This document shows positions 9,929 through 35,983 of a stretch of 60,221 nt of DNA, in pieces (the stretch's first letter is position 1; each line of letters begins with the position of its first letter). The position numbers and the translations under genes were made by a program. The notes under the pieces were generated by a model that ran no database searches, was not told the origin of the DNA, and saw only the letters and a program-made list of their open reading frames with translations. The DNA lies in NCBI GenBank assembly GCA_020832655.1, contig JAFIEF010000015.1, forward strand, positions 1 through 60,221, in the 5' to 3' direction. This DNA is from Paracoccaceae bacterium (GTDB taxonomy: Bacteria; Pseudomonadota; Alphaproteobacteria; Rhodobacterales; Rhodobacteraceae).

Positions 9929-10004
9929 GCCCAATGCCACCGGCATTGGGCCAGCGCCTGCAAGGCGTGCAGGGGCGGGTGGGTGGGCACGGCTTGCAGG
10001 CGCT
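9929..10004 (+). ncRNA. Two-hairpin structured element with G-quadruplex loop, copy 1
   Basis: Hairpin 1 (9929-9951) is GCCCAATGCC paired perfectly with GGCATTGGGC around ACC. Hairpin 2 (9953-10004) pairs an 18-base arm starting AGCGCCTGCAAGG with its near-perfect complement ending CTTGCAGGCGCT. The 16-base loop 9971-9986, read into the following G, gives GGGG-C-GGG-T-GGG-T-GGG, an ideal G-quadruplex sequence. The element starts 15 bases after the FAD oxidase stop, on the same strand, and ends before the converging aminotransferase gene. It is probably a 3'-end or terminator structure. Copies are at 14554-14629, 23736-23810 and, reversed, 35909-35983. Confidence 0.7.
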
Positions 10005-10040
10005 TCTGCCCCCCGCCGATTCGCGCGCGCCCGCAACCGC

Positions 10041-11435
10041 TCAGGCCGCGGCCTGCAACATCCCCTCGCGCCGCAGATGATCATGCGTCTGGTCCAGCGT
10101 CAGGCGCGCGCGGCGAACCAGCTCGTCGATATCGTCACGCGTGATCACCAAAGGTGGCGCAATGATCATCCGGTCCCCCACATGGCGCATCACCAGATTA
10201 TTGGCAAAGGAATATTCGCGGCAGATATAGCCCACTGTCCCCGGCTCAGTGACGAAACGCGCGCGGGCGGCCTTGTCGGGCGTCAGCGCAACGCTTGCCA
10301 TCATCCCGCGCGACACCGCTTCGCCCACCAGCGGGTGGTCGGCCAGCGACCCCCAGGCCCGCGCCAGATAGGGCGCGACATCGTCGCGCACACGCTCGAT
10401 GATGCGCTCTTCCTCCAGGATGCGCAGATTTTCCAGCGCCACGGCGGCGGCAACCGGATGGCCGGAATAGGTATAGCCGTGGTTGAACTCGTCGCGCCCG
10501 ATCACGCCCGCCACCTCGTCACAGATGATCGAGCCGCCAATCGGCTGGTAGCCCGAACTCAGCCCCTTGGCGATGGTCATGATATGCGGGCGAATGCCAT
10601 AGCTTTGCACCCCGAACCAGTGACCGAGCCGCCCGAAGCCGGTGATCACCTCATCGGCGATCAGCAGGATACCATATTGATCAACAATGCGCTGAACCTC
10701 CGGCCAGTAGCTGTCGGGCGGAATGATCACGCCGCCTGCGCCCTGCACCGGTTCGGCGATGAAGGCGGCCACATTTTCCGGCCCCAGTTCCAGTATTTTC
10801 GCCTCCAGCTGGCGCGCACGGGCAAGGCCGAATTCCTCGGCCGTCATCTCACCGCCCTCGCCCCACCAATAGGGCTGGTCGATATGCACGATATCGGGGA
10901 TCGGCAGCCCCCCTTGCGCATGCATCGCCGCCATGCCGCCCAGAGAGCCGCCGCCCATTGTCGAGCCGTGATAGCCATTGCGCCGCGAAATGATCACCCG
11001 CCGCTCTGGCTTGCCCTTCAGCGCCCAGTAGTGGCGCACCATGCGGATATTGGTGTCATTGGCCTCTGACCCCGAACAGGCAAAGAAGACATGGTTCAGA
11101 TCACCCGGTGCAAGCTCGGCCAGCCTTGCCGCCAGTTGCAGTGCGGGCACATGGCTGGTCTGGAAGAAGGTGTTGTAATAGGGCAATTCGCGCATCTGGC
11201 GCGCGGCGGCCTCGGCCAGTTCCTCGCGGCCATAGCCGATATTGACGCACCACAGCCCGGCCATGCCGTCGATCAGCTCGACCCCGTCACTATCGGTCAG
11301 CCGCACGCCTTGGGCGCGGGTAATGATGCGCGCGCCTTTCCTGCCCAGCGCCGTATTGGCGGTGAAAGGGTGCATGTGATGGGCCGCATCCAGCGCCTGC
11401 AATTCGGGCGTTGGGGCAATATTGGTCAGGCGCAT
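10041..11435 (-). CDS. Class III pyridoxal-phosphate aminotransferase (omega-amine:pyruvate type)
   Basis: Transfers an amino group from a terminal amine (for example putrescine, beta-alanine or another diamine) to pyruvate or a keto acid. Fold type I features are visible: ACSGSEANDTN binding the cofactor phosphate, NGYHGSTMGGGSLGG, the Asp of IADEVITGFGRLG, and the Schiff-base Lys in TIAKGLSSGYQPIGG. The 464-residue length is typical. GGAGGA seven bases upstream supports ATG 11435 rather than an earlier one at 11474. It is transcribed away from the adjacent GntR regulator gene, and the palindrome at 11497-11510 lies 62 bases upstream. The neighbours point to polyamine catabolism (SpuC-like), but the donor amine is inferred. 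Confidence 0.87.
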   Translation of the reverse strand: MRLTNIAPTPELQALDAAHHMHPFTANTALGRKGARIITRAQGVRLTDSDGVELIDGMAGLWCVNIGYGREELAEAAARQMRELPYYNTFFQTSHVPALQLAARLAELAPGDLNHVFFACSGSEANDTNIRMVRHYWALKGKPERRVIISRRNGYHGSTMGGGSLGGMAAMHAQGGLPIPDIVHIDQPYWWGEGGEMTAEEFGLARARQLEAKILELGPENVAAFIAEPVQGAGGVIIPPDSYWPEVQRIVDQYGILLIADEVITGFGRLGHWFGVQSYGIRPHIMTIAKGLSSGYQPIGGSIICDEVAGVIGRDEFNHGYTYSGHPVAAAVALENLRILEEERIIERVRDDVAPYLARAWGSLADHPLVGEAVSRGMMASVALTPDKAARARFVTEPGTVGYICREYSFANNLVMRHVGDRMIIAPPLVITRDDIDELVRRARLTLDQTHDHLRREGMLQAAA

Positions 11436-11496
11436 GGCATTCCTCCGGCAGATCAGTTGCCTGCGAGGATACAACCCACCCGATCCGCGTCAAGCA

Positions 11497-11510
11497 AATT
11501 TGATCAAATT
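11497..11510. promoter_or_regulatory. Perfect palindrome AATTTGATCAAATT, candidate GntR operator (site 1)
   Basis: A 14-base perfect palindrome in otherwise GC-rich sequence, 62 bases before the aminotransferase start and touching the stop codon of the GntR-family regulator gene. The core ATTTGATCAAAT recurs at 35858-35869 and, with one change, at 40841-40852, each upstream of an amine-metabolism operon. FCD-type GntR proteins bind short palindromes as dimers, so the adjacent regulator is the natural candidate. Confidence 0.7.
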
Positions 11511-12219
11511 ATCCGAACAACCCCTGCGCCTGCCCGGCGCGGATATTGGCCACGCCCTGCGCGATATCGGCCTTGATCGCCGCGACCAGCCCGGCCTCGT
11601 CGCCAATCGCCAGCGCGGCCAGCGCGCGCTTGTGGTTGTCAGGCTCATGCAGCGGCGCGCCATCGGCCCCGCGCGCCACCGCCCCTTCCGGCCCCTGACA
11701 CACCACCCGCAAGGACGGCCCGATCCGCAACCAAAGCGACGCCGCCAGCGCTTCCAGCACCGGGGAACCCGCCCGCGCATAAAGCGTGAAATGAAAGGCA
11801 TGGTTCTGGCGCAGATAGCCGGGAATATCGCCCGCCGCGATCGCCTGATCAAGTTGCGCATCAATCGCCTGCAGCTTTGCAATCAGCCCGGTATCACAAC
11901 CCGCCAGCGCCTGCACGGCCAGCCGCGTCTCGATGGCCTTGCGCGCATAGCCCAGATCCTCCAGCGCCGCCAGATCAAGCCGCGGCACACAGACACGCCG
12001 ATTGCCCAGAAGCTGCAACGCGCCTTCGGCAATCAGCCGCCTTATCGCCTCGCGCACCGGGGTCATGCCCAGCGCCAGTCGCGCAACCAGCCCCTCGATG
12101 GTCACCGCCGCCCCCGGCGCCAAGTCGCCAAACAGCACCATGTCGCGCAACCGCGCATAGGCGATCTGATGGGCAGGCACCCGTCCTGTCACCCCGTCCC
12201 CATCACCCGACAGCCCCAT
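11509..12219 (-). CDS. GntR-family transcriptional regulator with FCD domain
   Basis: Predicted cytoplasmic DNA-binding repressor. The N-terminal winged helix contains AYARLRDMVLFGDLAPG and the recognition region GMTPVREAIRRLIAEG, the hallmark of the FadR/VanR-type GntR proteins. The all-helical FCD effector domain follows, with NHAFHFTLYARAGSPVL and a late His (LHEPDNHKRAL), residues that usually bind a metal and a carboxylate effector. ATG 12219 is preferred: GGGGGA lies nine bases upstream, and the longer frame to 12291 would run through the terminator of gcdH. It precedes the aminotransferase gene on the same strand and probably controls it and two distant operons sharing the ATTTGATCAAAT site. 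The effector is unknown. Confidence 0.85.
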   Translation of the reverse strand: MGLSGDGDGVTGRVPAHQIAYARLRDMVLFGDLAPGAAVTIEGLVARLALGMTPVREAIRRLIAEGALQLLGNRRVCVPRLDLAALEDLGYARKAIETRLAVQALAGCDTGLIAKLQAIDAQLDQAIAAGDIPGYLRQNHAFHFTLYARAGSPVLEALAASLWLRIGPSLRVVCQGPEGAVARGADGAPLHEPDNHKRALAALAIGDEAGLVAAIKADIAQGVANIRAGQAQGLFG

Positions 12220-12236
12220 TTTCCGCCATCCCCCTG

Positions 12237-12286
12237 TTTCATCTTGCCCCAAATACTCAAAAAATCGCCGGGCGTCAGCCCGGCGA
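12237..12286 (-). repeat. Dispersed intergenic repeat, copy B, containing the gcdH terminator
   Basis: On the minus strand: a hairpin, a T-run, then GAGTATTTGGGGCAAGATGAAA, the same core as the other repeat copies. Here the hairpin and T-run form a clear intrinsic terminator (see 12259-12286). The ATGAAA end runs directly into the ribosome-binding site of the GntR gene. Confidence 0.65.
12259..12286 (-). terminator. Intrinsic terminator downstream of gcdH
   Basis: On the minus strand TCGCCGGGC pairs with GCCCGGCGA around a TGAC loop: a perfect 9-base-pair stem followed at once by six T residues. It lies about 35 bases after the gcdH stop codon, on the same strand. Confidence 0.85.
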
Positions 12287-12319
12287 GTCATCCTGTTGCA
12301 AAATGCCGCGCCCGAAGGG

Positions 12320-13543
12320 TCAGAAAAACGCCTGCAAGCCGGTCTGCGCGCGGCCCAATATCAGCGCATGCACATCATGCGTGCCTTCATAAGTGTTCAC
12401 GGTTTCCAGATTCATCATGTGGCGGATGACCTGAAACTCCTCGGAAATACCGTTGCCGCCATGCATGTCGCGCGCCTGGCGCGCAATCTCCAGCGCCTTG
12501 CCGCAATTGTTGCGCTTGATCAGGCTGATCATTTCCGGCGCGGCCTGCGCCTGATCCATCAAGCGGCCCACCTGCAACGCGGCCTGCAACCCCAGCGTGA
12601 TCTCGGTCTGCATATCGGCCAGCTTCTTCTGATAAAGCTGCGTGCCTGCCAGCGGCTTGTCGAATTGCTTGCGGTCCAGCCCGTATTGGCGCGCGCCATG
12701 CCAGCAGAACTCCGCGGCCCCCATCACGCCCCAGGCAATGCCGTAACGCGCGCGGTTCAGGCAGCCAAACGGTCCCTTAAGCCCCTCGACATGCGGCAAA
12801 AGCGCCTCCTCGCCAACCTCGACCCCCTCCATCACGATCTCGCCGGTGGTCGAGGCGCGCAGGCTCAGCTTGCCATCGATCCTGGGCGCGGACAGCCCTG
12901 CCATGCCACGTTCCAGCACAAAACCGCGAATGCGCCCGCCATGTGCATCCGATTTGGCCCAGACCACGAAGACATCGGCAAAGGGGCTGTTCGAAATCCA
13001 CATCTTCGACCCGGTAAGCCGGTAACCATTGGCCGTTTTCTCGGCCCGCGTCTTCATGCCCGCCGGGTCCGACCCGGCATCGGGTTCGGTCAGGCCGAAA
13101 CAGCCGATCAATTCACCCGAACACAGGCCGGGCAGGTATTTGCGGCGCTGCTCTTCGCTGCCATAGGCATAGATCGGATAGATCACCAGGCTCGATTGCA
13201 CCGACATCATGCTGCGATAGCCCGAATCGACGCGCTCGATCTCGCGCGCGATCAGCCCATAGGTGACATAGCCCGCGCCCAGGCCGCCATATTCCTCGGG
13301 CAGGGTCGCGCCCAGCAGCCCTGCCTGCCCCATCAAAGGGAACAATTCGGGGTCAGAGGCTTCATTGCGATAGGCGGCGATCACGCGCGGCTGCAGGGTG
13401 GATTGCGCAAATTCATGCGCCGCATCGCGCAACATGCGCTCATCCTCGCTCAACTGGCTTTCCAGCCGCAGCGGGTCATCCCAGTTGAATTTGCCCAGAT
13501 CAGGCGCGTCCTTCGCTTTCAGGGCAGGTTTGTCGAGTGGCAT
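12320..13543 (-). CDS. gcdH: Glutaryl-CoA dehydrogenase
   Basis: FAD-dependent acyl-CoA dehydrogenase that oxidises and decarboxylates glutaryl-CoA to crotonyl-CoA in lysine, tryptophan and glutarate breakdown, passing electrons to ETF. The 407-residue protein starts with the typical N-terminal extension before FNWDDPL. It has [13 protein letters not shown] and [16 protein letters not shown] of the middle beta domain. It ends with the catalytic Glu in [17 protein letters not shown], a signature specific for this member of the family. AAGGA lies about ten bases upstream of the ATG. A LysR-type gene is divergent, the usual GcdR arrangement. The identification is secure. Confidence 0.93.
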
Positions 13544-13578
13544 GGATCATGTCCTTCTTCAGCAGCAATCATTCATTC

Positions 13579-13591
13579 TACGCATAGCGTA
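13579..13591. promoter_or_regulatory. Palindrome TACGC-ATA-GCGTA between gcdH and the LysR gene
   Basis: A perfect interrupted palindrome in the 111-base divergent promoter region, 36 bases from the gcdH start. LysR-type regulators bind such dyads upstream of divergent targets, so it is a candidate operator. The call rests on symmetry and position only. Confidence 0.45.
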
Positions 13592-13654
13592 GCTTGAATA
13601 TTGGCCGCATAAAAACGATATTGCGGTATATCCTCATTCCAAAACGGTATACCC

Positions 13655-14548
13655 ATGACACTGCCCCGCCGTTTTCTGCCCACCACCCAGACGCTTCAGG
13701 CCTTTGACGCCGTGCTGCGGCTGGGCAGCTTCACTGCAGCGGCGGCGGAATTGTCGCTGACGCAATCGGCCGTTTCGCGACAGGTGGCGGCGCTGGAACG
13801 TCAGCTGGGCCGGGCGCTGCTTCAGCGCAGCGCGCGCGGGGTCCAGCCCACGCCCGAAGGGCGCATCTATGCCCGTGCCGCCCGCAGCGCGCTGGAAGAA
13901 TTGCAGCGCGCCGCGCTTGCGCTGCAGGGCGCGGGACGTCGGGGGCAGTTGACGCTGGCGATATTGCCCACTTTCGGCACGCGCTGGCTGATCCCGCGCA
14001 TTCCGCGCTTTTTGCGCGCGCATCCCGAAATCACGCTGCATTTCACCACCCGCATCGGGCAGTTCGACCTTCTGGCCGCGCAGGTGGATGCCGCGATCCA
14101 TGCCGGGCGCGCCGACTGGCCAGAGATCAGCGCCACGCTGCTGTTCGAAGACCGCGTGCAACCCTTTGCCGCGCCCGCATTACAGGCCAGCACCGCTGAC
14201 GAAATCGCGCGGCTGCCGCAATTGGGGATTGCCTCGCGCCCCGATGAATGGCGCGGCTGGGCGGAAGCGCATGGCCTGCCCGCCCCGCCGCCTGCGCAGA
14301 TGGTGTTCGAACATCTGGCGGCGCTTGCACAAGCCTGCGCCGCCGGGCTGGGGGTGGCGCTGTTGCCGCCCTTCCTGTTTCGCACCGAAATTGCGCGGGG
14401 CGAGCTGGTCGCGCTGGGGCCGGGCTGGGCCAATGGCGCGGGCTATTGGCTGATCACCCCCGATCAGGCCCGCCCCAGACCCGAAGTCGCGGCCTTTCGC
14501 GACTGGCTGCTGACCGAGATCACGCGCGAGGAAGGCGTCTATGCGTGA
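13655..14548 (+). CDS. LysR-type regulator divergent from gcdH
   Basis: A 297-residue LysR-family protein. The N-terminal helix-turn-helix reads GSFTAAAAELSLTQSAVSRQVAALERQLG, preceded by the linker helix start LPTTQTLQAFDAVLRLG. The effector-binding domain begins near LTLAILPTFGTRWLIPRIPRF and includes AQACAAGLGVALLPPFL. The overall pattern is that of GcvA/GcdR-like members that regulate a divergent catabolic gene, here gcdH. The effector is probably glutarate or a related metabolite, by inference from GcdR of other Proteobacteria. The stop codon is followed after five bases by a very long hairpin (14554-14629). Confidence 0.88.
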   Translation: MTLPRRFLPTTQTLQAFDAVLRLGSFTAAAAELSLTQSAVSRQVAALERQLGRALLQRSARGVQPTPEGRIYARAARSALEELQRAALALQGAGRRGQLTLAILPTFGTRWLIPRIPRFLRAHPEITLHFTTRIGQFDLLAAQVDAAIHAGRADWPEISATLLFEDRVQPFAAPALQASTADEIARLPQLGIASRPDEWRGWAEAHGLPAPPPAQMVFEHLAALAQACAAGLGVALLPPFLFRTEIARGELVALGPGWANGAGYWLITPDQARPRPEVAAFRDWLLTEITREEGVYA

Positions 14549-14553
14549 GCGCT

Positions 14554-14629
14554 GCCCTGCCCCTGCCCGCGCGGGGCGCGTGCAAGGGCGGGCGGGTGGG
14601 CATGCGCCCCGCGCGGGCAGGGGCAGGGC
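14554..14629 (+). ncRNA. Long hairpin with G-quadruplex loop, copy 2
   Basis: Two 30-base arms (14554-14583 and 14600-14629) pair with only one non-Watson-Crick position, a G·U. The loop AAGGGCGGGCGGGTGG plus the next G forms four GGG runs separated by single bases. The GTGC before the loop and GCAT after it match the closing pairs of the other copies. The element fills almost the whole gap between the converging LysR and SixA-like genes. There is no T-run and no preceding small hairpin in this copy. Confidence 0.7.
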
Positions 14630-14632
14630 GGA

Positions 14633-15139
14633 TCACTCCAGATCGCGCGGGACCACGAAATCCAGCGCGCGGCCGGCGCCGAAGGCCAGATCGTTCCAGC
14701 CCGCCAGCCCGTCAAATTCGGCCACCAGCGTGGCGCAGGTCGGATAGCTGCCAAAGCCCGGATGGGCAGGACGCTGCGCCAGCAACAGATCGGCAAAGGC
14801 GGCGATGCCGGGATTATGGCCGATCATGATCACGCATTCCGCCTTGGCCCCTTGCAGCACGCGCAGCATCACATCCGGCGCAGCATGATAAAGCGCAGGC
14901 TCAAACCGCGCGGGCACCGGGGCGGGCAGTTCCGCGCCAAGCTTCGCCCATGTCTGGCGCGTGCGCGCGGCATCCGACACCAGCGCTTCGCCCGGCAGAT
15001 AGCCCTTTTGTGCCAGCCAGCGCCCGATCAGCGGCGCGGCGTGCTGCCCGCGCGCATTCAGCGGGCGCTGATGGTCACTGTCCAGCGGGTTGTCCCAGGC
15101 GGATTTGGCGTGGCGGGTCAGGATCAGGCGCAGGGTCAT
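14633..15139 (-). CDS. SixA-like histidine phosphatase
   Basis: A 168-residue protein of the histidine phosphatase (phosphoglycerate mutase-like) clan. The catalytic RHG-type motif is at the N-terminus as LILTRHAKSAW, and the second catalytic His lies in VIMIGHNPGIAAFADLL. The length and the HAKS variant match SixA-type proteins, which in E. coli remove phosphate from histidine-containing phosphotransfer domains. Whether this one acts on a phosphorelay such as the one at 49-57 kb is not known. The start ATG at 15139 overlaps the stop of the ferredoxin-like gene (ATGA), so it is the last gene of the yidC-to-argB run. Confidence 0.82.
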   Translation of the reverse strand: MTLRLILTRHAKSAWDNPLDSDHQRPLNARGQHAAPLIGRWLAQKGYLPGEALVSDAARTRQTWAKLGAELPAPVPARFEPALYHAAPDVMLRVLQGAKAECVIMIGHNPGIAAFADLLLAQRPAHPGFGSYPTCATLVAEFDGLAGWNDLAFGAGRALDFVVPRDLE

Positions 15140-15783: not shown

Positions 15784-15787
15784 CTGA

Positions 15788-16678: not shown

Positions 16679-16681
16679 GTT

Positions 16682-18084: not shown

Positions 18085-18088
18085 TGCG

Positions 18089-21421: not shown

Positions 21422-21422
21422 C

Positions 21423-22082: not shown

Positions 22083-23192
22083 TCAGCCCAGATCGGAAAT
22101 GTCGAAATACTTCTCGCGCGCCAGCGCGAAGGTCAGATCGGTATTCTCGGTCCGGGTGCGCAGCAGGTTGAGGTTCTTCACGAAGCTCTCTGCCGTGGCC
22201 TTGGTCTTTGCGTCACCACTGTCAAGGATTTCCACGATCAGCTCGCGCGACGCTCTTGCACCGGCCTCAAGAATGCTGTCGGGCCAGTCCTTGTGGACGA
22301 TGGTGCCGTGATTTTCGACCATATCGGCCAGCGCAATCGGGTCATTGGCATAGAATTCCGACGGCACCTGATCATATTCGGCCTGGCAGACATCGCGAAT
22401 GATGCTTTGCAGATTGGTCGGCAGTTCCTGATATTTGGCCTTGTCCACCACCAGTTCGGTCGCCAGACCGGGTTCGATGAACGAGCTGGTATAGTAATGG
22501 TTGCGCACCTGATGGAAGCCCAGCGCGCGGTCATTATAGGGGCCGACGAATTCGGCCGCATCCAGCGCGCCCGATTGCAGCGCGGCAAAGATTTCGCCCC
22601 CGGCAAGGTTGGTGACCGAGGCCCCCATCTTCTGCCAGACCTGACCACCCAGACCCGGTGTGCGGAAGCGCAGACCCTGAACATCCTCGATGCCGGTCAG
22701 TTCGTTCTGGAACCAACCGCCAGCCTGGGTGCCGGTATCACCCGACAGGAAGCCTTGCACGCCGAAATCATCATAGATGTCGTCCCACAGCTCCTGCCCG
22801 CCCAGATAACGCATCCAGGCCGCCAATTCGCGCGAGGTCATGCCAAAGGGCACCCCGGTATAGAAGCCCAGACCCTGTGACTTGTTCAGCCAGTAATAGG
22901 CCGCGCCGTGGCTCATCTCGGCCGAGCCGTCGATGACGGCATCGAGCGATTGCAGCGCGGGAACCATCTCGCCTGCGGCAAAGACCTCAATCGTCAGCGC
23001 GCCATCAGCAGCGGCATTGATGCGGTCGGCGACGCGCTGCGCGCCAGTGCCCAGACCGGGGAAATTGCGCGGCCAGGTCGTGACCATGCGCCAGGTGATG
23101 CGCCCCTGCGCAACGGCCGGCGCGGCCAGCGTCGAGGCCGCCGCAGCCGTGCCCCCCAGCGCCGAGGTCTTAAGAAATGAACGACGATCCAT
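22083..23192 (-). CDS. dctP: TRAP transporter periplasmic substrate-binding protein (DctP/TakP-like)
   Basis: Periplasmic receptor that captures the substrate for the DctQM permease. The 369-residue precursor starts with a twin-arginine type signal (MDRRSFLKTSALGG) and an AAPAVAQ cleavage site. The mature part has the family motifs FAAGEMVPALQSLDAV, GLRFRTPGLGGQVWQKMG, the binding Arg in LRFRT, and GALDAAEFVGPYNDRALGF. The whole resembles TakP of Rhodobacter sphaeroides, an alpha-keto acid binder, so a keto or carboxylic acid substrate is a reasonable inference. GGAGGAA precedes the start. Confidence 0.92.
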   Translation of the reverse strand: MDRRSFLKTSALGGTAAAASTLAAPAVAQGRITWRMVTTWPRNFPGLGTGAQRVADRINAAADGALTIEVFAAGEMVPALQSLDAVIDGSAEMSHGAAYYWLNKSQGLGFYTGVPFGMTSRELAAWMRYLGGQELWDDIYDDFGVQGFLSGDTGTQAGGWFQNELTGIEDVQGLRFRTPGLGGQVWQKMGASVTNLAGGEIFAALQSGALDAAEFVGPYNDRALGFHQVRNHYYTSSFIEPGLATELVVDKAKYQELPTNLQSIIRDVCQAEYDQVPSEFYANDPIALADMVENHGTIVHKDWPDSILEAGARASRELIVEILDSGDAKTKATAESFVKNLNLLRTRTENTDLTFALAREKYFDISDLG

Positions 23193-23508
23193 GTTTTCCT
23201 CCCATGAAGCTTATTGTTCTGGCGCGGCCTTTCATGGCGCGCGCATTGATAAAGAGCACAGTAGGTCAGGACTGTGAACCCTTTTTTTCCAGCACATTCG
23301 GCTAACGCGTGACATTCTTGCGAAGATCGCATGCACCTTTCCGAATATGTCGAAGACAGGCATGAAAACGATATTTTGTTTCAATGGAAACCTTCGCGCG
23401 GGCAATCAGGTCAAATGACAAAACCACAACAACACTGCTTGCTTGACAGCGCGACTGCCCCAAGGCGCGCCGCCATGCCCGCAAAAGCCCCCGCAAAACA
23501 ACCCGCTG

Positions 23509-23659
23509 GAATTGTCCCCGATCAGCTTGTGCCAGATGAAACCCATCATCCGCGCCCCGACTTCATCTTGCGCCAAATACTCTCACCGAAGGTAGCGGGC
23601 CGGAAGGCCCGCATCCCCGCGCAAACAGGGCCAAAGCGCTGCAACCAGCGCCCTGCCCC
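23509..23659 (-). repeat. Dispersed intergenic repeat, copy C (long, about 150 bases)
   Basis: On the minus strand this stretch matches 44739-44888 through most of its length. The order is a GGGCAGG-GCGCTGGTTGCAGC start, GCGCGGGGAT, the hairpin GCGGGCC/GGCCCGC, CTACCTTCGG, GAGAGTATTTGGCGCAAGATGAA, a second TTTCATC, and GGGACAA near the end. The core with the hairpin is 23561-23612. It lies downstream of the DUF6746-like gene in the same orientation. Confidence 0.75.
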
Positions 23660-23735
23660 AAGCCGCAATGCAGCCAACTGCTCAAGCCTGGTCGAGTTTC
23701 ACTACAGCGTCGGTCGGTACCCCAAGGTGATTCTT

Positions 23736-23810
23736 GCCCGATGCGGGCACCGCATCGGGCGCGCCCGCAAGCCGTGCATGGGCGGGCGGGCGGGTGCCGC
23801 TTGCGGGCGC
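23736..23810 (+). ncRNA. Two-hairpin structured element with G-quadruplex loop, copy 3
   Basis: Hairpin 1 (23736-23760) pairs GCCCGATGCGG perfectly with CCGCATCGGGC around GCA. Hairpin 2 (23761-23810) pairs GCGCCCGCAAGC perfectly with GCTTGCGGGCGC. Its apical part has GTGC, then ATGGGCGGGCGGGCGG, then GTGC, closing by wobble pairs and presenting four GGG runs with single-C spacers. Unlike the other copies there is no gene ending just upstream on the plus strand, so this copy may be an orphan or mark the 3' end of an unrecognised transcript. Confidence 0.6.
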
Positions 23811-23927
23811 CACAGCGCTGATCCGCTTCGGCTCAAGGCTGCGCCAACATGGCCGATGCGCGGGCTCTGTGAACCCGAAGGTGGGAATGATCAGGCGCGG
23901 GCGCTACGCCACCCTCGGGTCATGCAC

Positions 23928-24296
23928 TCAAGGCACAAGCTGCCGGGCTACGGCCAGATAAGCCTTGGAAAGCCCCACGAGTTTTTCTGCATCTGCCCCT
24001 TCAGAGGCCAGATGAACCTCTTCCAGCAGATCGGCCAGTTCGGTTGCCTCGGCGATGATCCTTTCAAGGGCAACTTCCAGCGTATAGGTTAGCTGGTGGA
24101 TATCCTCCATATTGTCCCGCGTCATTTCCGGGCGGGCCAGAACAGCCGCCATGCGCTTGTTATAGGTTGAAAAATTGTCGAGCGCTTCGGCCAGAGTCGC
24201 CGAACCCTCGGCGGCGTAATGGTCAACACGTTCATCAGCAAATACGGGCATTGTGCTCAGGGCCAATGCGGCAATCAGCGCAGTTCTTCTTTTCAT
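23928..24296 (-). CDS. Small exported protein, DUF6746-like
   Basis: A 122-residue protein with a cleavable signal peptide (MKRRTALIAALALSTMPVFA) and a mature part that is almost entirely alpha-helical and acidic. It contains DNFSTYNKRMAAVLARPEM, DIHQLTYTLEVALERI and EATELADLLEEVHLASEG. The Glu/His-containing helices recall the DUF6746 family and, more loosely, small periplasmic four-helix proteins. No catalytic or metal motif is certain and the function is unknown. It stands alone between metG and the repeat-rich gap, on the minus strand. Confidence 0.7.
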   Translation of the reverse strand: MKRRTALIAALALSTMPVFADERVDHYAAEGSATLAEALDNFSTYNKRMAAVLARPEMTRDNMEDIHQLTYTLEVALERIIAEATELADLLEEVHLASEGADAEKLVGLSKAYLAVARQLVP

Positions 24297-26145: not shown

Positions 26146-26250
26146 GTATGTCCCCTTGCTGCGGCTTGATGGTGGTTTAGACCAGTTCGGGGCATAGGGG
26201 AAAGCGGTTTTCTGCCAGCAGCGCGGCGTGCAGGCAGGCCGGATACCGCC

Positions 26251-27942: not shown

Positions 27943-27989
27943 GCGCGGGTCTTGTCATCAGGCGCTGCTATCTCCGGCACGGCAGCCCC

Positions 27990-29267: not shown

Positions 29268-29381
29268 GCCCGTATCCTTTCCACCAACCCGCGTGCCCTG
29301 AAACAAAACCGGATTCACAGGTTTACATAATTTGCAGTGTCGATATTCTGCACTAGCGAAGGATAGGGGGGAAATCTTTCC

Positions 29382-31184
29382 ATGACAATGTCCGAATATG
29401 ATGATGATGCAAAAGCCGAACGGATGAAGGCAAATATGGCACGCATCGAAGAGCTGACAGCGCGCCTGACCAATGCGCTTGCACAGCGCAAGATGCCGCG
29501 CCCCAGCCTGCAAGCCCCTGATACGGACATGTTTCTGCAAGCCACCGCCGCTTATTGGAGCGAGATGGTCAAGAACCCGTCAAAGGTTCTTGAAAAGCAG
29601 ATCGACTATTGGGGGAAGTCGCTGAAGCACGTGGTCGAGGCGCAGGAGGCGTTGCGCGGCGGAAAGCTGCATCCGCCCGAGGACAACACCCCCGATGACC
29701 GGCGATTCTCGAACCCGTTATGGAAGACGCACCCCTATTTCAACTATATCAAGCAGCAATATCTGATGGCCACAGAGGCCATGCAGCGCACGGTCGAGGA
29801 TCTGGAGACGCTGTCGCCGCGCGAAAAACGCAGGCTGGGCTATTTCACCCAGCAGATCGCCGATATGATGGCGCCCACGAACTTCATCGCCACCAACCCC
29901 GATGCGCTGATGAAAGCGGTTGAAACCGAGGGCGAAAGCCTGATCAGGGGCTTGGAAAACCTGGTCCGCGATGTCGAAGCCAATGACGGCGAATTGCTGG
30001 TCACGCTGGCCGACAAGGACGCTTTCAGGGTCGGCGAAAATCTGGCCACCACGCCGGGCAAGGTGGTGTTCCGCAACCGCATGTTCGAACTGATCCAGTA
30101 TGCACCAAGCACTGAAAAGGTGCATCGCACGCCCGTGATGATCTTCCCGCCCTGGATCAACAAATTCTACATCATGGATCTGAAACCCCAGAACAGCCTG
30201 ATCAAATGGATCGTCGATCAGGGCTACACGCTGTTCATCGTGTCCTGGGTGAACCCCGATGCAAGCTATGCCGATGTCGGCATGGATACCTATGTCGAAG
30301 AGGGCTATCTGGAAGCGATCCGCGTCGCGCGCGAGATCACGGGCGAAAACCAGGTCAATGCCGTGGGCTATTGCATTGCCGGCACCACCCTGTCGCTGAC
30401 GCTGGCGCTGATGAACAAGCGCAAGGACAAATCCGTGCGCTCTGCCACCTTCTTCACGACGCTGACGGATTTTTCCGATCAGGGAGAGGTCGGCGTGTTC
30501 CTTGAAGATGATTTCGTCGACGGGATCGAGGCCGAATGCAATGACAGCGGCTATCTGGACAGTTTCTTCATGTCGCGCACCTTTTCCTTCCTGCGCAGCA
30601 ACGACCTGATCTATGGTCCGGCCATTCGCAGTTACATGATGGGCGAGGCACCGCCTGCCTTCGACCTTCTCTACTGGAATGGCGACGGCACCAACCTGCC
30701 GGGGCGGATGTGTGTCGAATATCTGCGCGGGCTGTGCCAGACCGACCGCTTTGCCGGAGCGACGTTCAGCATCTGCGGCGAGGAGGTCAGCATCGCGGAT
30801 GTCAAACATCCACTTTGCGCGATTGCCTGCGAAACCGATCATATCGCGGCATGGCGGTCCAGTTTCCGCGGCGTGACAAGGATGGGCAGTCGCGACAAGA
30901 ACTTCATCCTGTCGCAATCGGGCCATATCGCGGGGATCATCAACCCACCCTCGAAAATGAAGTACGGCCATTATGCCGGCCCCAAGCCCGAAGGCACCCC
31001 CGAAGAGTGGCTGGAAGCGGCAGAATTCCATGAAGGATCATGGTGGCCGCGCTGGGAAGCCTGGCTGAAACGGCGCTCGGGCGCGATGGTCGAGGCCCGC
31101 ATTCCTGGTGATTCGGGTTATCCCGCGCTGGCAGATGCCCCCGGCACCTATGTCATCAGCACGAAAAACGAAGATATGTCATAG
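29382..31184 (+). CDS. phaC: Class I poly(3-hydroxyalkanoate) synthase
   Basis: Polymerises 3-hydroxyacyl-CoA into polyhydroxyalkanoate on the granule surface. The 600-residue protein has the N-terminal PhaC domain (WKTHPYFNYIKQQYLM). The lipase-box-like catalytic Cys is in VGYCIAGTTLSLTLA, and the catalytic His in LSQSGHIAGIINPP. The Asp of ACETDHIAAW, which completes the triad, is also present. GGGGGGAAA lies about seven bases before the ATG. The size and the absence of a PhaE or PhaR partner of other classes make it class I. It is followed by phaP and phaR on the same strand. Confidence 0.95.
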   Translation: MTMSEYDDDAKAERMKANMARIEELTARLTNALAQRKMPRPSLQAPDTDMFLQATAAYWSEMVKNPSKVLEKQIDYWGKSLKHVVEAQEALRGGKLHPPEDNTPDDRRFSNPLWKTHPYFNYIKQQYLMATEAMQRTVEDLETLSPREKRRLGYFTQQIADMMAPTNFIATNPDALMKAVETEGESLIRGLENLVRDVEANDGELLVTLADKDAFRVGENLATTPGKVVFRNRMFELIQYAPSTEKVHRTPVMIFPPWINKFYIMDLKPQNSLIKWIVDQGYTLFIVSWVNPDASYADVGMDTYVEEGYLEAIRVAREITGENQVNAVGYCIAGTTLSLTLALMNKRKDKSVRSATFFTTLTDFSDQGEVGVFLEDDFVDGIEAECNDSGYLDSFFMSRTFSFLRSNDLIYGPAIRSYMMGEAPPAFDLLYWNGDGTNLPGRMCVEYLRGLCQTDRFAGATFSICGEEVSIADVKHPLCAIACETDHIAAWRSSFRGVTRMGSRDKNFILSQSGHIAGIINPPSKMKYGHYAGPKPEGTPEEWLEAAEFHEGSWWPRWEAWLKRRSGAMVEARIPGDSGYPALADAPGTYVISTKNEDMS

Positions 31185-31209
31185 GCTTGGCATCTTGCAG
31201 CCGAAAAAA

Positions 31210-31222
31210 TGCTGCAGTGCAG
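31210..31222. promoter_or_regulatory. TGC-rich palindrome TGCTGCAGTGCAG upstream of phaP
   Basis: A candidate PhaR-binding site 98 bases before the phaP start. In Paracoccus denitrificans PhaR is known to bind TGC-rich sites in the phaP and phaR promoters. A second, stronger TGC cluster lies within the promoter just downstream. Confidence 0.6.
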
Positions 31223-31232
31223 AAAAAATCCT

Positions 31233-31262
31233 TGAAATGCTGCGCTGCAGCGTGCATATTAT
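31233..31262 (+). promoter_or_regulatory. phaP promoter with overlapping PhaR-type operator
   Basis: A -35 box TTGAAA (31233-31238) and a -10 box TATTAT (31257-31262) are separated by 18 bases. That spacer is the dyad-rich TGCTGCGCTGCAGCGTGCA (31238-31256). A repressor bound there would block RNA polymerase directly, consistent with PhaR repressing the phasin gene until polymer granules titrate it away. Confidence 0.65.
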
Positions 31263-31319
31263 GTGCAGACGCAGAGAGCACGACGCAAACTGCGGACCAG
31301 TTAACCAAGGAGAGCTGAC

Positions 31320-31766
31320 ATGGCTGCTGCAAACCCCGACTACACCAAGCTGATGAAAGACATGATGGGCGCATTCCCGGTGGACACCACCGCGATGCAG
31401 GACGCGTTCAAATCGCAAGCCGCTCTGGCAGAGAAGATGAGCAAGGTTGCTCTGGAAGCTGCCGAGAAGTCGACCGAAGTTTCGACCAAATGGACCAAGG
31501 CAACCCTGGCCAAGGTCGGCGAAGTTTCGACCGTCAAGGAAGACCCGGCTGACTACTCCAAATCCGTCACCGATTTCGCTTCGGCTTCGGCTGAAATGGC
31601 TGCCGAGCATGTTGCCGCTTTCGCTGAAATCGCGAAAAAAGTCCAGATGGACACGGTCGAGCTGCTGATGGCTGCCGGCAAGGACATGCAGGAAGAAACC
31701 GCGGCTGCTGTCAAGAAAGCCACCGACACCGCGACCAAAGCTGCCAAGACCGCTTCGGCGAAGTAA
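31320..31766 (+). CDS. phaP: Phasin (polyhydroxyalkanoate granule protein)
   Basis: A 148-residue Ala/Lys/Glu-rich, wholly alpha-helical amphipathic protein that coats polyhydroxyalkanoate granules. It begins MAAANPDYTKLMKDMMGAFP, has repeated AAEKSTEVSTKW-type helices, and ends in an Ala/Lys/Thr-rich tail (KKATDTATKAAKTASAK). AAGGAGAG precedes the ATG. Codons are noticeably less GC-biased than in neighbouring genes, as expected for a very abundant protein. Upstream lies a promoter overlapped by TGC-rich PhaR-type sites, and downstream a strong intrinsic terminator. It lies between phaC and phaR. Confidence 0.92.
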   Translation: MAAANPDYTKLMKDMMGAFPVDTTAMQDAFKSQAALAEKMSKVALEAAEKSTEVSTKWTKATLAKVGEVSTVKEDPADYSKSVTDFASASAEMAAEHVAAFAEIAKKVQMDTVELLMAAGKDMQEETAAAVKKATDTATKAAKTASAK

Positions 31767-31817
31767 GCTGCCAGACTTCGCAAGGCCCGTTCCTCCTCCC
31801 ATTCGGGCCGCATCAGG

Positions 31818-31849
31818 GGGCGAGCGTTCAACGCTCGCCCTTTTCTTTT
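31818..31849 (+). terminator. Intrinsic terminator after phaP
   Basis: GGGCGAGCG pairs with CGCTCGCCC around TTCAA, followed by TTTTCTTTT. This classical terminator lies 51 bases after the phasin stop and separates it from phaR. Confidence 0.93.
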
Positions 31850-31868
31850 GCATTCGCCTGTCCTAATC

Positions 31869-31883
31869 TTGCTGCAATGCAAA
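31869..31883. promoter_or_regulatory. Palindromic TTGCTGCAATGCAAA upstream of phaR
   Basis: A TTGC...GCAA-type dyad 20 bases before the phaR start, sharing TGCTGCA with the sites upstream of phaP. It is a candidate autoregulatory PhaR operator, by analogy with Paracoccus. Confidence 0.6.
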
Positions 31884-31903
31884 AGTCTCGGGAGGGGACG
31901 AAG

Positions 31904-32446
31904 ATGACCGAAGACCCAAAGCCGCTGCTGATCAAGCGCTACGCCAGCCGCAGGCTCTATAACACCGAGACCAGCGATTACGTCACGCTTGAAGATATCG
32001 CGGGTTTCATCCGCGCCGGGCGCGAAGTGCAGATCGTCGATCTGAAATCAGGCGATGACCTGACACGCCAGTATCTTTTGCAGATCATCGCAGAGCATGA
32101 AAGCCGCGGTGAGAATGTTCTGCCGCTGGGCGTGCTGACCGATCTGGTGCGCAGCTACACCACCCAGGCGCAAAGCGTGGTGCCGCAATTCCTTGCGATG
32201 TCCTTCGAGATGCTGCGCGAGGGCCAGTCCAAGATGGTTGAAAACATGACCCGCGCCAGCCCGATGGCCGCGATGCCGGGATTCGAGGAAATGCAGCGCC
32301 AGCAACAGGCCTTCATGAAAACCATGATGGCCGGATGGCCCGGCACGGCCGGGGCGTCAGACGACAAGGATGGCGGCGACGATCTGGACGAGATCAAGAA
32401 GCAATTGGCCGAATTGCAGCAGAAGCTGTCAAAGCTGAACAAGTAG
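31904..32446 (+). CDS. phaR: Polyhydroxyalkanoate synthesis repressor PhaR
   Basis: DNA- and polymer-binding repressor of phasin expression. The 180-residue protein starts with the highly conserved PhaR domain (LLIKRYASRRLYNTETSDYVTLEDI, then IVDLKSGDDLTRQYLLQII). A second helical region for granule binding follows. A charged C-terminal coiled coil (DEIKKQLAELQQKLSKLNK) probably makes it oligomeric. ATG 31904 has GGAGGGGA at ideal distance; an earlier in-frame start at 31877 lies within the probable operator. It converges with the PuuB-like gene with only nine bases between the stop codons and no visible terminator. Confidence 0.94.
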   Translation: MTEDPKPLLIKRYASRRLYNTETSDYVTLEDIAGFIRAGREVQIVDLKSGDDLTRQYLLQIIAEHESRGENVLPLGVLTDLVRSYTTQAQSVVPQFLAMSFEMLREGQSKMVENMTRASPMAAMPGFEEMQRQQQAFMKTMMAGWPGTAGASDDKDGGDDLDEIKKQLAELQQKLSKLNK

Positions 32447-32455
32447 AGCCGCGCG

Positions 32456-33760
32456 CTACAGCCCCAGCCGGTCGCGCAGGGCAAACCATGTCATTGCCAG
32501 CGCCAGCAGCGGGCTGCGCAGCGCGCGCCCGCCGGGAAAGCGCGGCAGTTTCAGCCCTGCCATCAGATCAAAACGCTCTGCCTGCCCGGCCACGGCTTCG
32601 GCCATGATCTTGCCCGCCAGCGTGGCCAGCGCCACCCCATGCCCCGAATAGCCCGAGGCCGACAGGATATTGGGCGCCACCCGCATGAAACAGGGCAGCC
32701 GCGTCATGGTGATGGCCAGCGTCCCGCCCCAGGCATAATCGATGCGCGTGTCTTGCAGCTGCGGAAACACCTGCAACATCGGCTTGCGCACGGTTCTGAT
32801 GATGTCAGGGAAGCGATAGCCATAGCTTTCCCCGCCCCCGAACAACAGCCGCCCGTCTTGCGACAGGCGGAAGTAGTTGATCACGAACTTGCTGTCAGCC
32901 ACGGCCACATCGCGGGTCAGAACCGTGCCCTGCGCCAATGGTTCGGTGGCGATGATGAAATTATTGATCGGCATGACCCGCGCGGCCACTTTCGGTGCCA
33001 GCCCGCCCAGGTAGCCATTTGCGGCAAGGATGACATGATCGGCCTTGACATGGCCATATTCGGTCTGAACCCGCGCCTTCTGGCCCTGCGCGATATCCAC
33101 CACCAGCGAGTTTTCGAATATCTGCGCACCCGCCGCCTGTGCCGCGCGCGCAAGCCCCAGCGCATAGCGCAGCGGGTGGACATGGCCTGCCCCGTGATCC
33201 AGCACCCCGCCCTGATAGGCCGGTGCCTTGACAATGGCCTGCACGCCCGCGCGGTCCAGCGCCTCGATCCGGTCATAACCATAATCGCGCGCCAGCTTTT
33301 CTGCATAGGCATGGGCATGGGGCAGATCGCGCGCGCGCCAGTCAGCGTGCACCACACCAGGGCGAAACGGGCAATCCATGTCATGGCGGGTGATCAGGTC
33401 AACCACCAGATCGCGCGCTTCCAGCCCGACATCCCACAGCTTGCGCGCGATCTCTGGGCCGAACATCGCCTCGATCCGGTCCTGTTCGATGCGCTGGCCC
33501 GGCCCGACCTGCCCGCCATTGCGCCCCGAGGCGCCAAAGCCCACGCGATGGGCTTCCAGCACCATCACCGAATAGCCCCGCTCGGCCAGATGCAGCGCCG
33601 CCGACAGCCCGGTATAGCCCGCACCTATGACGCAGATATCGGCCTTATGCGCGCCTTTCAGCCTTGGACAAGGCGCCAGCGGGGTGGCAGTGGCCGCATA
33701 ATAGCTGGGCGGATACTGCCCCGCATGGTCATTGGCAAAAAGCAGGTTCATGCGGCTCAT
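32456..33760 (-). CDS. puuB: FAD-dependent oxidoreductase, gamma-glutamylputrescine oxidase-like (PuuB)
   Basis: D-amino-acid-oxidase-type flavoenzyme of 434 residues. It has DICVIGAGYTGLSAALHLAERG as the FAD-binding fold, GASGRNGGQVGPGQ next to the flavin, and a C-terminal GTLAITMTRLPCF and SASGYSGHGVALATLAGKI. These features place it with PuuB, which oxidises gamma-glutamylputrescine to the aldehyde. Its start overlaps the stop of the glutamine synthetase-like gene (ATGA), so they are translationally coupled, and the amidotransferase lies first in the same operon. This context strongly suggests a gamma-glutamylated amine as substrate, though which amine is unknown. Confidence 0.85.
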   Translation of the reverse strand: MSRMNLLFANDHAGQYPPSYYAATATPLAPCPRLKGAHKADICVIGAGYTGLSAALHLAERGYSVMVLEAHRVGFGASGRNGGQVGPGQRIEQDRIEAMFGPEIARKLWDVGLEARDLVVDLITRHDMDCPFRPGVVHADWRARDLPHAHAYAEKLARDYGYDRIEALDRAGVQAIVKAPAYQGGVLDHGAGHVHPLRYALGLARAAQAAGAQIFENSLVVDIAQGQKARVQTEYGHVKADHVILAANGYLGGLAPKVAARVMPINNFIIATEPLAQGTVLTRDVAVADSKFVINYFRLSQDGRLLFGGGESYGYRFPDIIRTVRKPMLQVFPQLQDTRIDYAWGGTLAITMTRLPCFMRVAPNILSASGYSGHGVALATLAGKIMAEAVAGQAERFDLMAGLKLPRFPGGRALRSPLLALAMTWFALRDRLGL

Positions 33761-35112
33761 ACATTCAGCAGCAGATGTTCACGTTCCCAGGGGCTGATGA
33801 CCTGCAGGAATTCATTGTATTCATCGCGCTTGACTGCGGCATAGATGCGGCAGAATTCCGGGTCGAGAATTTCATGCAGCCGCGCGGCCTCGTCAAAGGT
33901 GTCCAGCGCGCTGCCCAATGTGCGCGGCAATTCGTCTTCATCCATATAGGCGTTGGTGCGGCAATCCTCGCGCGGGGCGACGCGTTCCTTCAGCCCCAGA
34001 TAGCCGCAGGCCAACGAGGCGGCGATGCCCAGGTAGGGGTTGCAATCCATCCCCGCCAGCCGGTTTTCCACCCGCCGCGACGCCGGCGAGGAAATTGGAA
34101 TGCGCAGCCCCGTGGTGCGGTTGTCATAGCCCCATTCCAGATTGATGGGTGCGGCGAAATCCGGCACATAGCGGCGATAGCTGTTCACATAGGGCGCAAT
34201 CAGCGCCACGGCCGAAGGCAGGTGGCGCTGCAACCCGCCGATGAAATGCATGAACATGTCGGTGCTGTCGCCGGTTTCGGTGGAAAACAGGTTCTGCCCG
34301 GTTTCAGCGTCGATCACCGAATGATGCAGATGCATGGCGCTGCCCGGCTCGCCCTCGATCGGTTTGGCCATGAAGGTGGCGAACATGTCATGGCGCAGCG
34401 CGGCTTCGCGGATCATGCGCTTGAAATAGAACACCTGATCGGCCAGCTTCAGCGGGTCGCCATGCACCAGATTGATCTCGACCTGGCCCGCACCGCCTTC
34501 CTGCATGATGCCGTCGATTTCCAGCCCCATCACTTCGGCGAAATCATAGATGTCGTCAATCACCTTGCCGTATTCATCCACCGCCGACATCGAATAGGCC
34601 TGCCGCGCAGCCGCGCGCCTGCCGGAGCGCCCCATTGGCGGGATGATCGGCATGTTCGGGTCGGTGTTGCGCGCGACAAAGAAGAACTCCATCTCTGGCG
34701 CGATCACCGGCGTCCAGCCTTCGCGACGATAGAGGTCAAGCACGCGCTTCAGGACATTGCGCGGGGCTGTGGGGATGGGGGCGCCATTGGGGTCTTCGGC
34801 GTCATGGATGATCTGCAAGGTCCAGTCGGCAGTCCAGGGTGCAGCGGTGGCGGTGGTGAAATCGGGGCGCATGATCATGTCGGGTTCCAGATCGGCCCCG
34901 TCGCGAAACTCTGCCCAGCCACCAGTGATGGTTTGCAGGAAGATCGAGGTCGGCAGATAGTATTTCGACCCGTCGCCGAATTTGAAGGCGGGCATGGCCT
35001 TGCCGCGGGCGACACCGGCCATATCCGCGATGATGCATTCGACCTCGTCCAGACGACGCCCGGACAGGTAGTCGCGCGCCGATTGCGGGATTTGTTCGCG
35101 CCAGTCTGACAT
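33757..35112 (-). CDS. Glutamine synthetase family protein, gamma-glutamylamine synthetase-like (PuuA-type)
   Basis: A 451-residue member of the glutamine synthetase superfamily. It has MEFFFVARN and QEGGAGQVEINLVHGDPL for metal and glutamate binding, MAKPIEGEPGSAMHLHHSV, and YDNRTTGLRIPISSPASRRVE at the ATP site. True nitrogen-assimilating GlnA adenylylation and feedback regions are not evident, and the length and context fit gamma-glutamylpolyamine synthetases, which join glutamate to an amine using ATP. It lies between an amidotransferase and a PuuB-like oxidase in one operon. A second paralogue is encoded at 36002-37327. Confidence 0.85.
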   Translation of the reverse strand: MSDWREQIPQSARDYLSGRRLDEVECIIADMAGVARGKAMPAFKFGDGSKYYLPTSIFLQTITGGWAEFRDGADLEPDMIMRPDFTTATAAPWTADWTLQIIHDAEDPNGAPIPTAPRNVLKRVLDLYRREGWTPVIAPEMEFFFVARNTDPNMPIIPPMGRSGRRAAARQAYSMSAVDEYGKVIDDIYDFAEVMGLEIDGIMQEGGAGQVEINLVHGDPLKLADQVFYFKRMIREAALRHDMFATFMAKPIEGEPGSAMHLHHSVIDAETGQNLFSTETGDSTDMFMHFIGGLQRHLPSAVALIAPYVNSYRRYVPDFAAPINLEWGYDNRTTGLRIPISSPASRRVENRLAGMDCNPYLGIAASLACGYLGLKERVAPREDCRTNAYMDEDELPRTLGSALDTFDEAARLHEILDPEFCRIYAAVKRDEYNEFLQVISPWEREHLLLNV

Positions 35113-35141
35113 GAATAACCTGTGATATCCTTTCTGCCGCG

Positions 35142-35840
35142 TCAGCCGGGCTGCGCACGGCTGCGCTGATGATCCTTGAAGAATGCAACAATCCGCGCGC
35201 CGATGACAGCGCTATCGCGCACCCCGCCCAAAGTCTGGCGCGCCTGATCCAGAACCGCATCGGGCACGACGCCCTTGCCGCGCGCTTCAATCAGACCCTT
35301 GATGAAGCCATCATCGAATTCGGGATGGGGCTGAAGCGAATAGCCGGTATCGCCATAGCCCAGCGCGGCGTAGCGGCAGAAATCGCTGCTGCCAAGCGTG
35401 CGGGCCTGTGGCGGCGGTTCCAGCACCTGATCCTGATGCCAGGCATTCAGCACCAGCGGCTTGCCTTCGAACTCATAGCCCTGCGCGCCCACCGCCCAGC
35501 CGCCCGGAAACTTGCCGACCCTGCCACCCAGCGCCTGCGCCATGATCTGATGGCCAAAGCAGATGCCCACCACCGGCTTGCCCGCAGCAAAAGCATCGCG
35601 GATGAACTGTTCCAGCGGCGCGATGAAGGGGTGATCTTCGTAGACGCCGTGGCGCGAGCCGGTGATCAGCCAGCCATCGGCCTGATCGACAGTGGCGGGA
35701 AACGCCATCGCCTCGACATGCCAGGTCGCAAAATCCAAGCCCGCCCCGGCCAAAAGCTGTTCGAACAGCGCCGGATAGTCGCCCTGGGTCGCGCGCAATT
35801 CGTCAGGCGCCTGCCCCGTCTGAAGGATACCGATTTTCAT
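35142..35840 (-). CDS. Class I glutamine amidotransferase-like protein
   Basis: A 232-residue protein with the complete catalytic triad of class I amidotransferases: the nucleophile Cys in VVGICFGHQIMAQALGG, and His and Glu in LQPHPEFDDGF. The oxyanion region is WLITGSRHGVYED. It resembles the GMP-synthase-like free-standing amidotransferases rather than PuuD. Beside two gamma-glutamylamine synthetase-like genes and an oxidase it may hydrolyse a gamma-glutamyl bond, releasing glutamate from the end product. That is inference. It heads the operon and is preceded by the palindrome ATTTGATCAAAT at 35858-35869. Confidence 0.83.
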   Translation of the reverse strand: MKIGILQTGQAPDELRATQGDYPALFEQLLAGAGLDFATWHVEAMAFPATVDQADGWLITGSRHGVYEDHPFIAPLEQFIRDAFAAGKPVVGICFGHQIMAQALGGRVGKFPGGWAVGAQGYEFEGKPLVLNAWHQDQVLEPPPQARTLGSSDFCRYAALGYGDTGYSLQPHPEFDDGFIKGLIEARGKGVVPDAVLDQARQTLGGVRDSAVIGARIVAFFKDHQRSRAQPG

Positions 35841-35857
35841 GCGCGTCTCTTGTCAGA

Positions 35858-35869
35858 ATTTGATCAAAT
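35858..35869. promoter_or_regulatory. Perfect palindrome ATTTGATCAAAT, candidate GntR operator (site 2)
   Basis: It lies 18 bases upstream of the amidotransferase start, where a bound repressor would block transcription. It has the same core as the 14-base palindrome at 11497-11510 beside the GntR gene. Confidence 0.7.
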
Positions 35870-35908
35870 CCTAATGCGCGGCGCGGTCTGGTGCAAGGGG
35901 CAAAGAAA

Positions 35909-35983
35909 AGCGCCCGCAAGGGGCACCCACCCACCCGACCCCGCACCCCTTGCGGGCGCTGCCTGATGCCGGGGACATCAGGC
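35909..35983 (-). ncRNA. Two-hairpin structured element with G-quadruplex loop, copy 4 (reverse strand), with T-run
   Basis: Read on the minus strand, hairpin 1 (35983-35961) pairs GCCTGATGTC with GGCATCAGGC around CCC. Hairpin 2 (35960-35909) pairs AGCGCCCGCAAGGGG perfectly with its complement. Its loop is GTGC-closed and reads GGGG-TC-GGG-T-GGG-T-GGG, a G-quadruplex motif. Immediately after the stem comes TTTCTTTG. It starts 18 bases after the stop of the glutamine synthetase-like gene 36002-37327 on the same strand, so termination is the likely role of this copy. Confidence 0.75.

Follow-up and report, generated by a model that had tools for sequence, protein, structure and literature searches.

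The stretch analysed here, called the window throughout, comprises 60,221 nucleotides (nt) of contig JAFIEF010000015.1 from the Paracoccaceae bacterium assembly GCA_020832655.1, and between its genes lie four hairpins whose tips each carry four runs of G. An initial annotation had described these as a four-copy family of structured elements, in which stems of differing sequence are capped by a G-quadruplex loop, and the window sequence bears out both the four positions and the four loops. Copies 1, 3 and 4 are indeed preceded by a second hairpin. The elements and their neighbouring genes are as follows.

9929..9951, plus strand: second (upstream) hairpin of copy 1 (sequence, RNA fold)
9953..10004, plus strand: hairpin with predicted quadruplex cap, copy 1, between the convergent genes 8579-9913 (+) and 10041-11435 (-)
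9972..9987, plus strand: the four G-runs of copy 1, GGGG C GGG T GGG T GGG (sequence, motif search, fold)
14552..14631, plus strand: hairpin with predicted quadruplex cap, copy 2, between the convergent genes 13655-14548 (+) and 14633-15139 (-, SixA-like)
23736..23760, plus strand: second (upstream) hairpin of copy 3 (sequence)
23761..23810, plus strand: hairpin with predicted quadruplex cap, copy 3, between the minus-strand genes 22083-23192 and 23928-24251
35909..35960, minus strand: hairpin with predicted quadruplex cap, copy 4, after 36002-37327 (-) and before 35142-35840 (-)
35961..35983, minus strand: second (upstream) hairpin of copy 4 (sequence)

The stem of copy 1 has a single G.G mismatch, that of copy 3 has mismatches close to the loop, and copy 2 is a long, near-perfect stem without the second hairpin. 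In agreement with the annotation, three copies follow a predicted gene of the same strand on its 3' side. The exception is copy 3, whose G-rich strand is antisense to both flanking genes; it sits in a 735-nt gap (window 23193-23927) with no predicted plus-strand gene ahead of the hairpin, and a small RNA ending at this hairpin is possible. Copy 4, which is followed by TTTTCTTT, belongs to the small group in which the G-rich strand is sense to the tandem genes on either side.

When RNA folding was run with quadruplexes allowed, a three-layer quadruplex was predicted on the tip of all four G-rich strands, with a gain of 27-34 kcal/mol, while the four C-rich strands gave neither a predicted quadruplex nor a gain in energy. 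The window holds five four-run motifs with spacers of 1-3 bases, and the copies account for four of them. Three of the five passed a stem threshold whose shuffled null reached 0.43; such a high value, owing to the small number of motifs, means that nothing is proved by this test on its own. Copy 4 missed the threshold because the script drew its motif boundary too wide.

Copies in the genus and in the family Rhodobacteraceae

The family is real but considerably larger than the four copies first described. In the 3.24-Mb window genome the exact loop pattern has 21 matches, against 1 for the reversed pattern, and read by eye the flanks of all 21 pair up, the three that scored poorly under ungapped automatic extension having interrupted arms (L001, L020) or a short stem (L014). 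The covariance search that had been proposed, run with a model built from 69 copies in several genomes of the genus, places 31 distinct hairpins in the window genome, and one further hairpin, at C19:31501, was found only through a pattern of arms plus G-runs. Across the genus the model has matches at E <= 0.01 in 33 of 37 genomes, from 1 to at least 148 per genome, with weak matches among the lowest counts. These counts are neither exact nor upper bounds, as the best 150 candidates per genome were scored, matches near E = 0.01 are weak, and near-palindromic copies may match on both strands (observed in G404 and G417). The highest count, at least 148 among the best 150 candidates, belongs to G400, where near-palindromic copies may likewise have been counted once per strand; at the other end, 0-4 matches each were found in 12 genomes, which make up two groups of the tree.

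Across the family, the strict loop pattern occurs in 15 of 394 family genomes (about one genome per genus), and several of these matches are hairpins. A looser pattern of arms plus three G-runs occurs in 38 of the 394, but since its reversed control matches about 32 genomes (counted by eye; 41 matches in total, 5 of them in G000), the presence count is near background and only the multi-copy genomes stand out. These are G037 (104 matches vs 0 in the control), G000 (22 vs 5), G318 (20 vs 2), G004 (9 vs 0) and G233 (6 vs 0), overlapping matches being counted. G037, which is from another genus (L443-L462), represents a separate expansion, and its stems show the same single G.G and tandem G.A features as those in the genus of the window. 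In a general genome collection, among the matches listed with enough flank, the loop word stood on a stem in 53 of 59 Rhodobacteraceae matches and in 0 of 49 from other taxa, where taxa were sorted from record titles with one unclear locus set apart, and a few related genomes contribute most of the 59. In two further genomes of the family (L025, L031) a loop-like word lies inside a predicted gene, adjoining related proteins and without a hairpin; this is probably a coding motif that the pattern matched falsely.

Single loci followed across the genus differ widely in whether they carry the element. At the junction of ribA with a gene for an L,D-transpeptidase-like protein (ribA-ldt; 30 loci, L239-L268), the genes overlap at stop and start in 12 loci, and elsewhere the spacer is 39-115 nt where measured and is often the quadruplex hairpin. 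Nine loci have the element or its stem, one (G418) has a C-tract, five have other spacers and three are truncated at the end of a contig; G417 adds a tenth locus with the element. The carriers fall in several clades of the midpoint-rooted tree, so both one old insertion with losses and repeated insertion are possible. The annotation had suggested that loss of the G-runs from a retained stem in related strains would speak against its proposal, and at this junction the outcome is divided. The four runs are kept in seven of ten genomes, one run is broken in each of G404 and G428, and in G409 the stem is kept and the G-rich part lost. The stems differ greatly between species, and most tips remain. 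In G418 (L249) a C-tract of about 45 bases with few interruptions stands where relatives carry the element, and is perhaps a degenerate element or an assembly artefact.

The locus of copy 2 is a different case, for a four-run motif lies within 400 nt of the sixA stop codon in the window genome only, 1 of 30 loci. Downstream of metK, with 400 nt searched, such a motif occurs in 2 of 30 loci, those of the window genome and G400 (one of the 30 has less than 150 nt after the stop). The G400 hairpin (L425) lies 151 nt after metK, farther away than that of the window genome and in the opposite orientation, and because of these differences the element seems to have been gained there twice, independently.

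Upkeep of the tip and the strand that folds

The stems covary. Changes on both sides of a pair were found in 195 cells, against 54 +/- 6 in shuffles, bearing in mind that copies within one genome are related and that both shuffles and counts therefore overstate the number of independent events. Double changes occur in 17 of 21 pairs, and 88% of cells are paired, compared with 33-55% when the alignment is slid.

For the tip, we searched seven genomes with the two arms only, allowing any 10-40 bases between them, and dropped both-strand duplicates and one unrelated G422 match before counting. Four GGG runs were present in 20 of 21 loops from G428, 14 of 14 from G422 and 10 of 10 from G423, together 44 of 45, where 0.4 of 45 would be expected after permutation of the letters; some copies may be common to G422 and G423, which are closely related. 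The same held for 29 of 30 loops in G402, 3 of 3 in G404 and 2 of 2 in G000. The spacers, on the other hand, vary in both letter and length (C, T, A, G, CA, TC, TT, AT and others), and a single genome may hold as many as 14 different sets of them. The stem changes freely and the tip mostly keeps its four G-runs, which points to a structure rather than a sequence word as the thing maintained; judged from these comparisons, the G-quadruplex tip itself appears to be under selection. The four runs thus stand as a feature of the family, as annotated, though their hold is weaker in G400 and G404. At a number of G404 loci (L286, L302, L307, L311, L324-L337) many stems are kept and the tips are degenerate, as if the quadruplex were no longer maintained there.

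Two further features of the window copies do not carry over to the family. The closing box in which GTGC pairs with GCAC is not general, since GGC/GCC closes most tips in G428, G422 and G423 and in other species GCGCC/GGCGC takes its place, and the second hairpin was detected by rule at 73 of 169 distinct copies, and at 1 of 39 in G400.

Which of the two strands folds can be read from the mismatches of the inner stems. In 157 distinct copies, with all non-Watson-Crick pairs scored alike and copies lacking four runs or with stems shorter than 10 dropped, the G-rich strand has 165 purine-purine oppositions and 8 pyrimidine-pyrimidine ones. Purine-purine oppositions are in excess in all eight of the larger sets, G037 included (13 vs 0), although the 157 stems are not independent tests, as copies within a genome are related. 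G.T exceeds A.C by 61 to 12 and is higher in seven of the eight sets (G422 has neither); part of this is built in, for the search pattern permitted G.T and not A.C in the closing pairs, but the purine-purine count is unaffected. A single G.G recurs in 57 of the 157 stems and a tandem G.A in 45, which on the opposite strand would be C.C and T.C. Because the mismatches are purine-purine on the G-rich strand, that strand is, on this sequence criterion, the one that folds. We had at first favoured the C-rich strand as the functional RNA, given that the adjacent stop codon is usually that of the gene whose RNA is C-rich. It was abandoned as the folding strand on the strength of the mismatch test, and also because a convergent pair gives the same class in either orientation.

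Placement at gene ends and possible functions

Gene orientations were taken from a codon-usage gene caller trained on the window genome and, separately, on G037, and applied to family matches in other genera without retraining. Among 170 copies fetched from the genus, 83 lie between convergent genes, 46 between tandem genes to both of which the G-rich strand is antisense, 17 between tandem genes in the sense direction and 5 between divergent genes; 3 are inside a predicted gene, and 16 have a neighbour missing, mostly at contig ends. The position 3' of a same-strand gene, noted for the window, is thus no general rule. Between tandem genes the excess of 46 antisense over 17 sense copies is significant (p = 3e-4) and makes the G-rich strand the template, and in 43 of the 46 the stop codon is 14-99 nt from the loop. 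All five tandem matches to the family genomes outside the genus are likewise antisense, although one of the five has no hairpin. G037 was surveyed over 393 kb, on contigs that were picked because they contained hits; there 16 of 25 short-spacer motifs stand on hairpins, against a shuffled null of 19%, and of the 16 ten are convergent, four antisense-tandem, one sense-tandem and one inside a gene. On these contigs, 10 of the 36 convergent gaps of at least 40 nt hold the element, compared with 5 of the 126 tandem ones (odds ratio 9.3, p = 1.3e-4).

In most convergent and tandem copies a GC-rich hairpin follows a stop codon at a distance of up to about 100 nt, as in an intrinsic terminator. The U-rich tract that should stand right after such a hairpin is too weak to qualify: the mean is 2.2 T in the first seven bases, and at least four T occur in 23% of the 83 convergent copies, so that a T-run is no general feature. 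Where convergent junctions carry two hairpins (n = 41), T after the G-rich hairpin averages 2.46 of 7 and A before the second hairpin 1.41 of 7 (p = 2e-4). This polarity is absent between two minus-strand genes (n = 17, p = 0.95), and the six copies between two plus-strand genes are uninformative (p = 1.0). With intrinsic terminators, including twin-hairpin clusters (PMC8355165), the likeness extends to the position soon after a stop codon, the enrichment between convergent genes, the frequent pairing of two adjacent hairpins and the short T-tract on one side. The present elements differ in having a maintained four-run tip of about 16 bases instead of a small loop, a weak T-tract, and, for 46 of the 170 copies, a folded strand to which neither flanking gene is sense.

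The position at gene ends, the rarity between divergent genes and the T-tract polarity point to transcription punctuation. We put at about one half the probability that the elements form a dispersed family of gene-end punctuation marks, terminators or insulators, made of a hairpin with a three-layer, short-spacer G-quadruplex tip on the G-rich strand. Transcribed toward the short T-tract, the hairpin and the quadruplex would form behind RNA polymerase and end transcription, and from the opposite gene the same folded strand would be the DNA template and may hold polymerase back, so that an element placed between convergent genes would separate both. Folding of the G-rich strand fits both roles, that of an RNA when transcription runs in the sense direction and that of template DNA when the opposite gene is transcribed. 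By the tandem bias (46:17, absent in G428, G422 and G417), co-directional genes tend to keep the G-rich strand between them out of RNA, whether because the element terminates there or because transcribed G-rich strands are unstable; PMC7023247 describes an instability that depends on transcription and arises when the G-rich strand is the non-template. What survives of the initial interpretation is the structured family, the tip that looks selected, the location at gene ends and the terminator-like placement.

Several observations weigh against punctuation. The T-tract is no stronger than behind plain hairpins of G037 (32 vs 10, p = 0.65), and the idea that the quadruplex replaces the U-tract was rejected on this comparison. 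The tip is less well kept in G400, where 36 of 47 arm-found copies have the four runs, and in G404, where they are intact in 8 of 20 model-found copies, an exception among the sets. In the ribA-ldt operon, where a terminator would be costly, the element is nevertheless present, though its orientation there is antisense. Three genomes lack the tandem bias (sense to antisense 5 to 4 in G428, 2 to 1 in G422 and 2 to 2 in G417), and in their distance to the next gene the antisense and sense tandem copies are not significantly different (p = 0.34). A next gene within 60 nt was found for 9 of 46 antisense and 0 of 17 sense copies (p = 0.10), so tolerance of read-through as the cause of the bias has the right direction but fails significance.

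The elements might instead be selfish or mobile palindromic repeats of the REP kind, spread by an enzyme acting on the folded G-rich single strand and found at gene ends because they do least harm there, which we consider rather unlikely, if a serious competitor. The sharp differences between species (at least 148 matches in G400, 0-4 in 12 genomes), the sixA element confined to the window genome, the seemingly independent metK elements, the near-identical units at many loci within G428 and the empty sites at ribA-ldt would all follow from spread between loci by some copying process, and folding of one strand would suit single-strand transposition. Like REP and CGTC repeats (PMC3733652), they are short palindromes dispersed between genes, and by that account CGTC repeats also occur without a dedicated transposase. 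Unlike those repeats, their stem varies between copies and species, the tip, with its quadruplex motif, is kept, and alignment A1 has no terminal GTAG or CGTC tag (consensus flanks AGCGCCC...GGGCGCTT, read by eye). The Y1/RAYT transposase domain PF01797 was not found in the high-copy genomes G000, G400, G402, G418, G417 and G428; any match at all occurred in 4 of 37 genus genomes, two of them over the cut-off and including the high-copy G399, and on this search membership of the RAYT/REP system was rejected. A target-site duplication was not demonstrated, and at one locus the stems have turned over in several species while the tips were retained, which suggests maintenance in situ.

A DNA roadblock, in which the quadruplex hairpin on the template strand of the gene ending beside it stops polymerase and the G-rich RNA is irrelevant, would account for the tandem bias with the G-rich strand as template, for the closeness of the stop codon in the antisense copies and for the uniformly antisense matches outside the genus. 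Convergent copies cannot tell the strands apart, however, the T-tract polarity is significant at convergent junctions only, and G428, G422 and G417 do not share the bias, and we regard this explanation as improbable. Still less credible is an RNA structure that faces proteins or 3' nucleases and protects mRNA 3' ends or binds protein without terminating, for although the recurring tandem G.A and single G.G features and the weak T-tract would suit it, the 46 copies antisense to both neighbours leave no known mRNA 3' end that would carry the G-rich strand.

Relation to known elements and implications

Rfam 15 has no match in the window at the gathering score, and in 20 loci none of the 12 matches with E of 10 or less reached its gathering score, the highest-scoring being a microRNA-precursor model on the L003 hairpin (41.1 bits vs 74). 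Integron attC sites are a conceivable analogy. PIT and BoxC repeats (PMC4666352) are G-rich folded bacterial repeats in which one strand folds, as here, but by that account they fold as triplexes and showed no terminator activity, whereas the present elements have two paired arms and a quadruplex-motif tip. Among the papers listed by our literature search there was no description of a family of quadruplex-capped hairpins. The closest title is that of Kaplan 2016, which reportedly deals with a conserved quadruplex-hairpin-duplex switch of E. coli, a bacterial sequence able to be quadruplex or hairpin that may or may not share the architecture of these elements, and Wu 2015, again by its title, is said to show that hybrid quadruplexes mediate termination in bacterial cells. 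To our knowledge, selection on bacterial quadruplexes for function has so far been argued mostly from single promoters or from counts of motifs. Here the contrast between kept runs and changing spacers is evidence, at the level of sequence, that the quadruplex itself is selected, and the mismatch rule names the folding strand.

Tentatively, and at somewhat longer odds than punctuation as such, these elements may be an undescribed class of Rhodobacteraceae element, a selected, hairpin-borne G-quadruplex that more than one genus maintains at the ends of scores of genes, acting as a directional, strand-specific boundary (as RNA one way, as template DNA the other) and able to spread. A single genome offers many loci, natural variants occur in which the runs are kept or lost, and named species of the probable genus exist; the ribA-ldt junction is a natural test of uncoupling within an operon. 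The family suggests a type of terminator that predictors based on the U-tract would miss.

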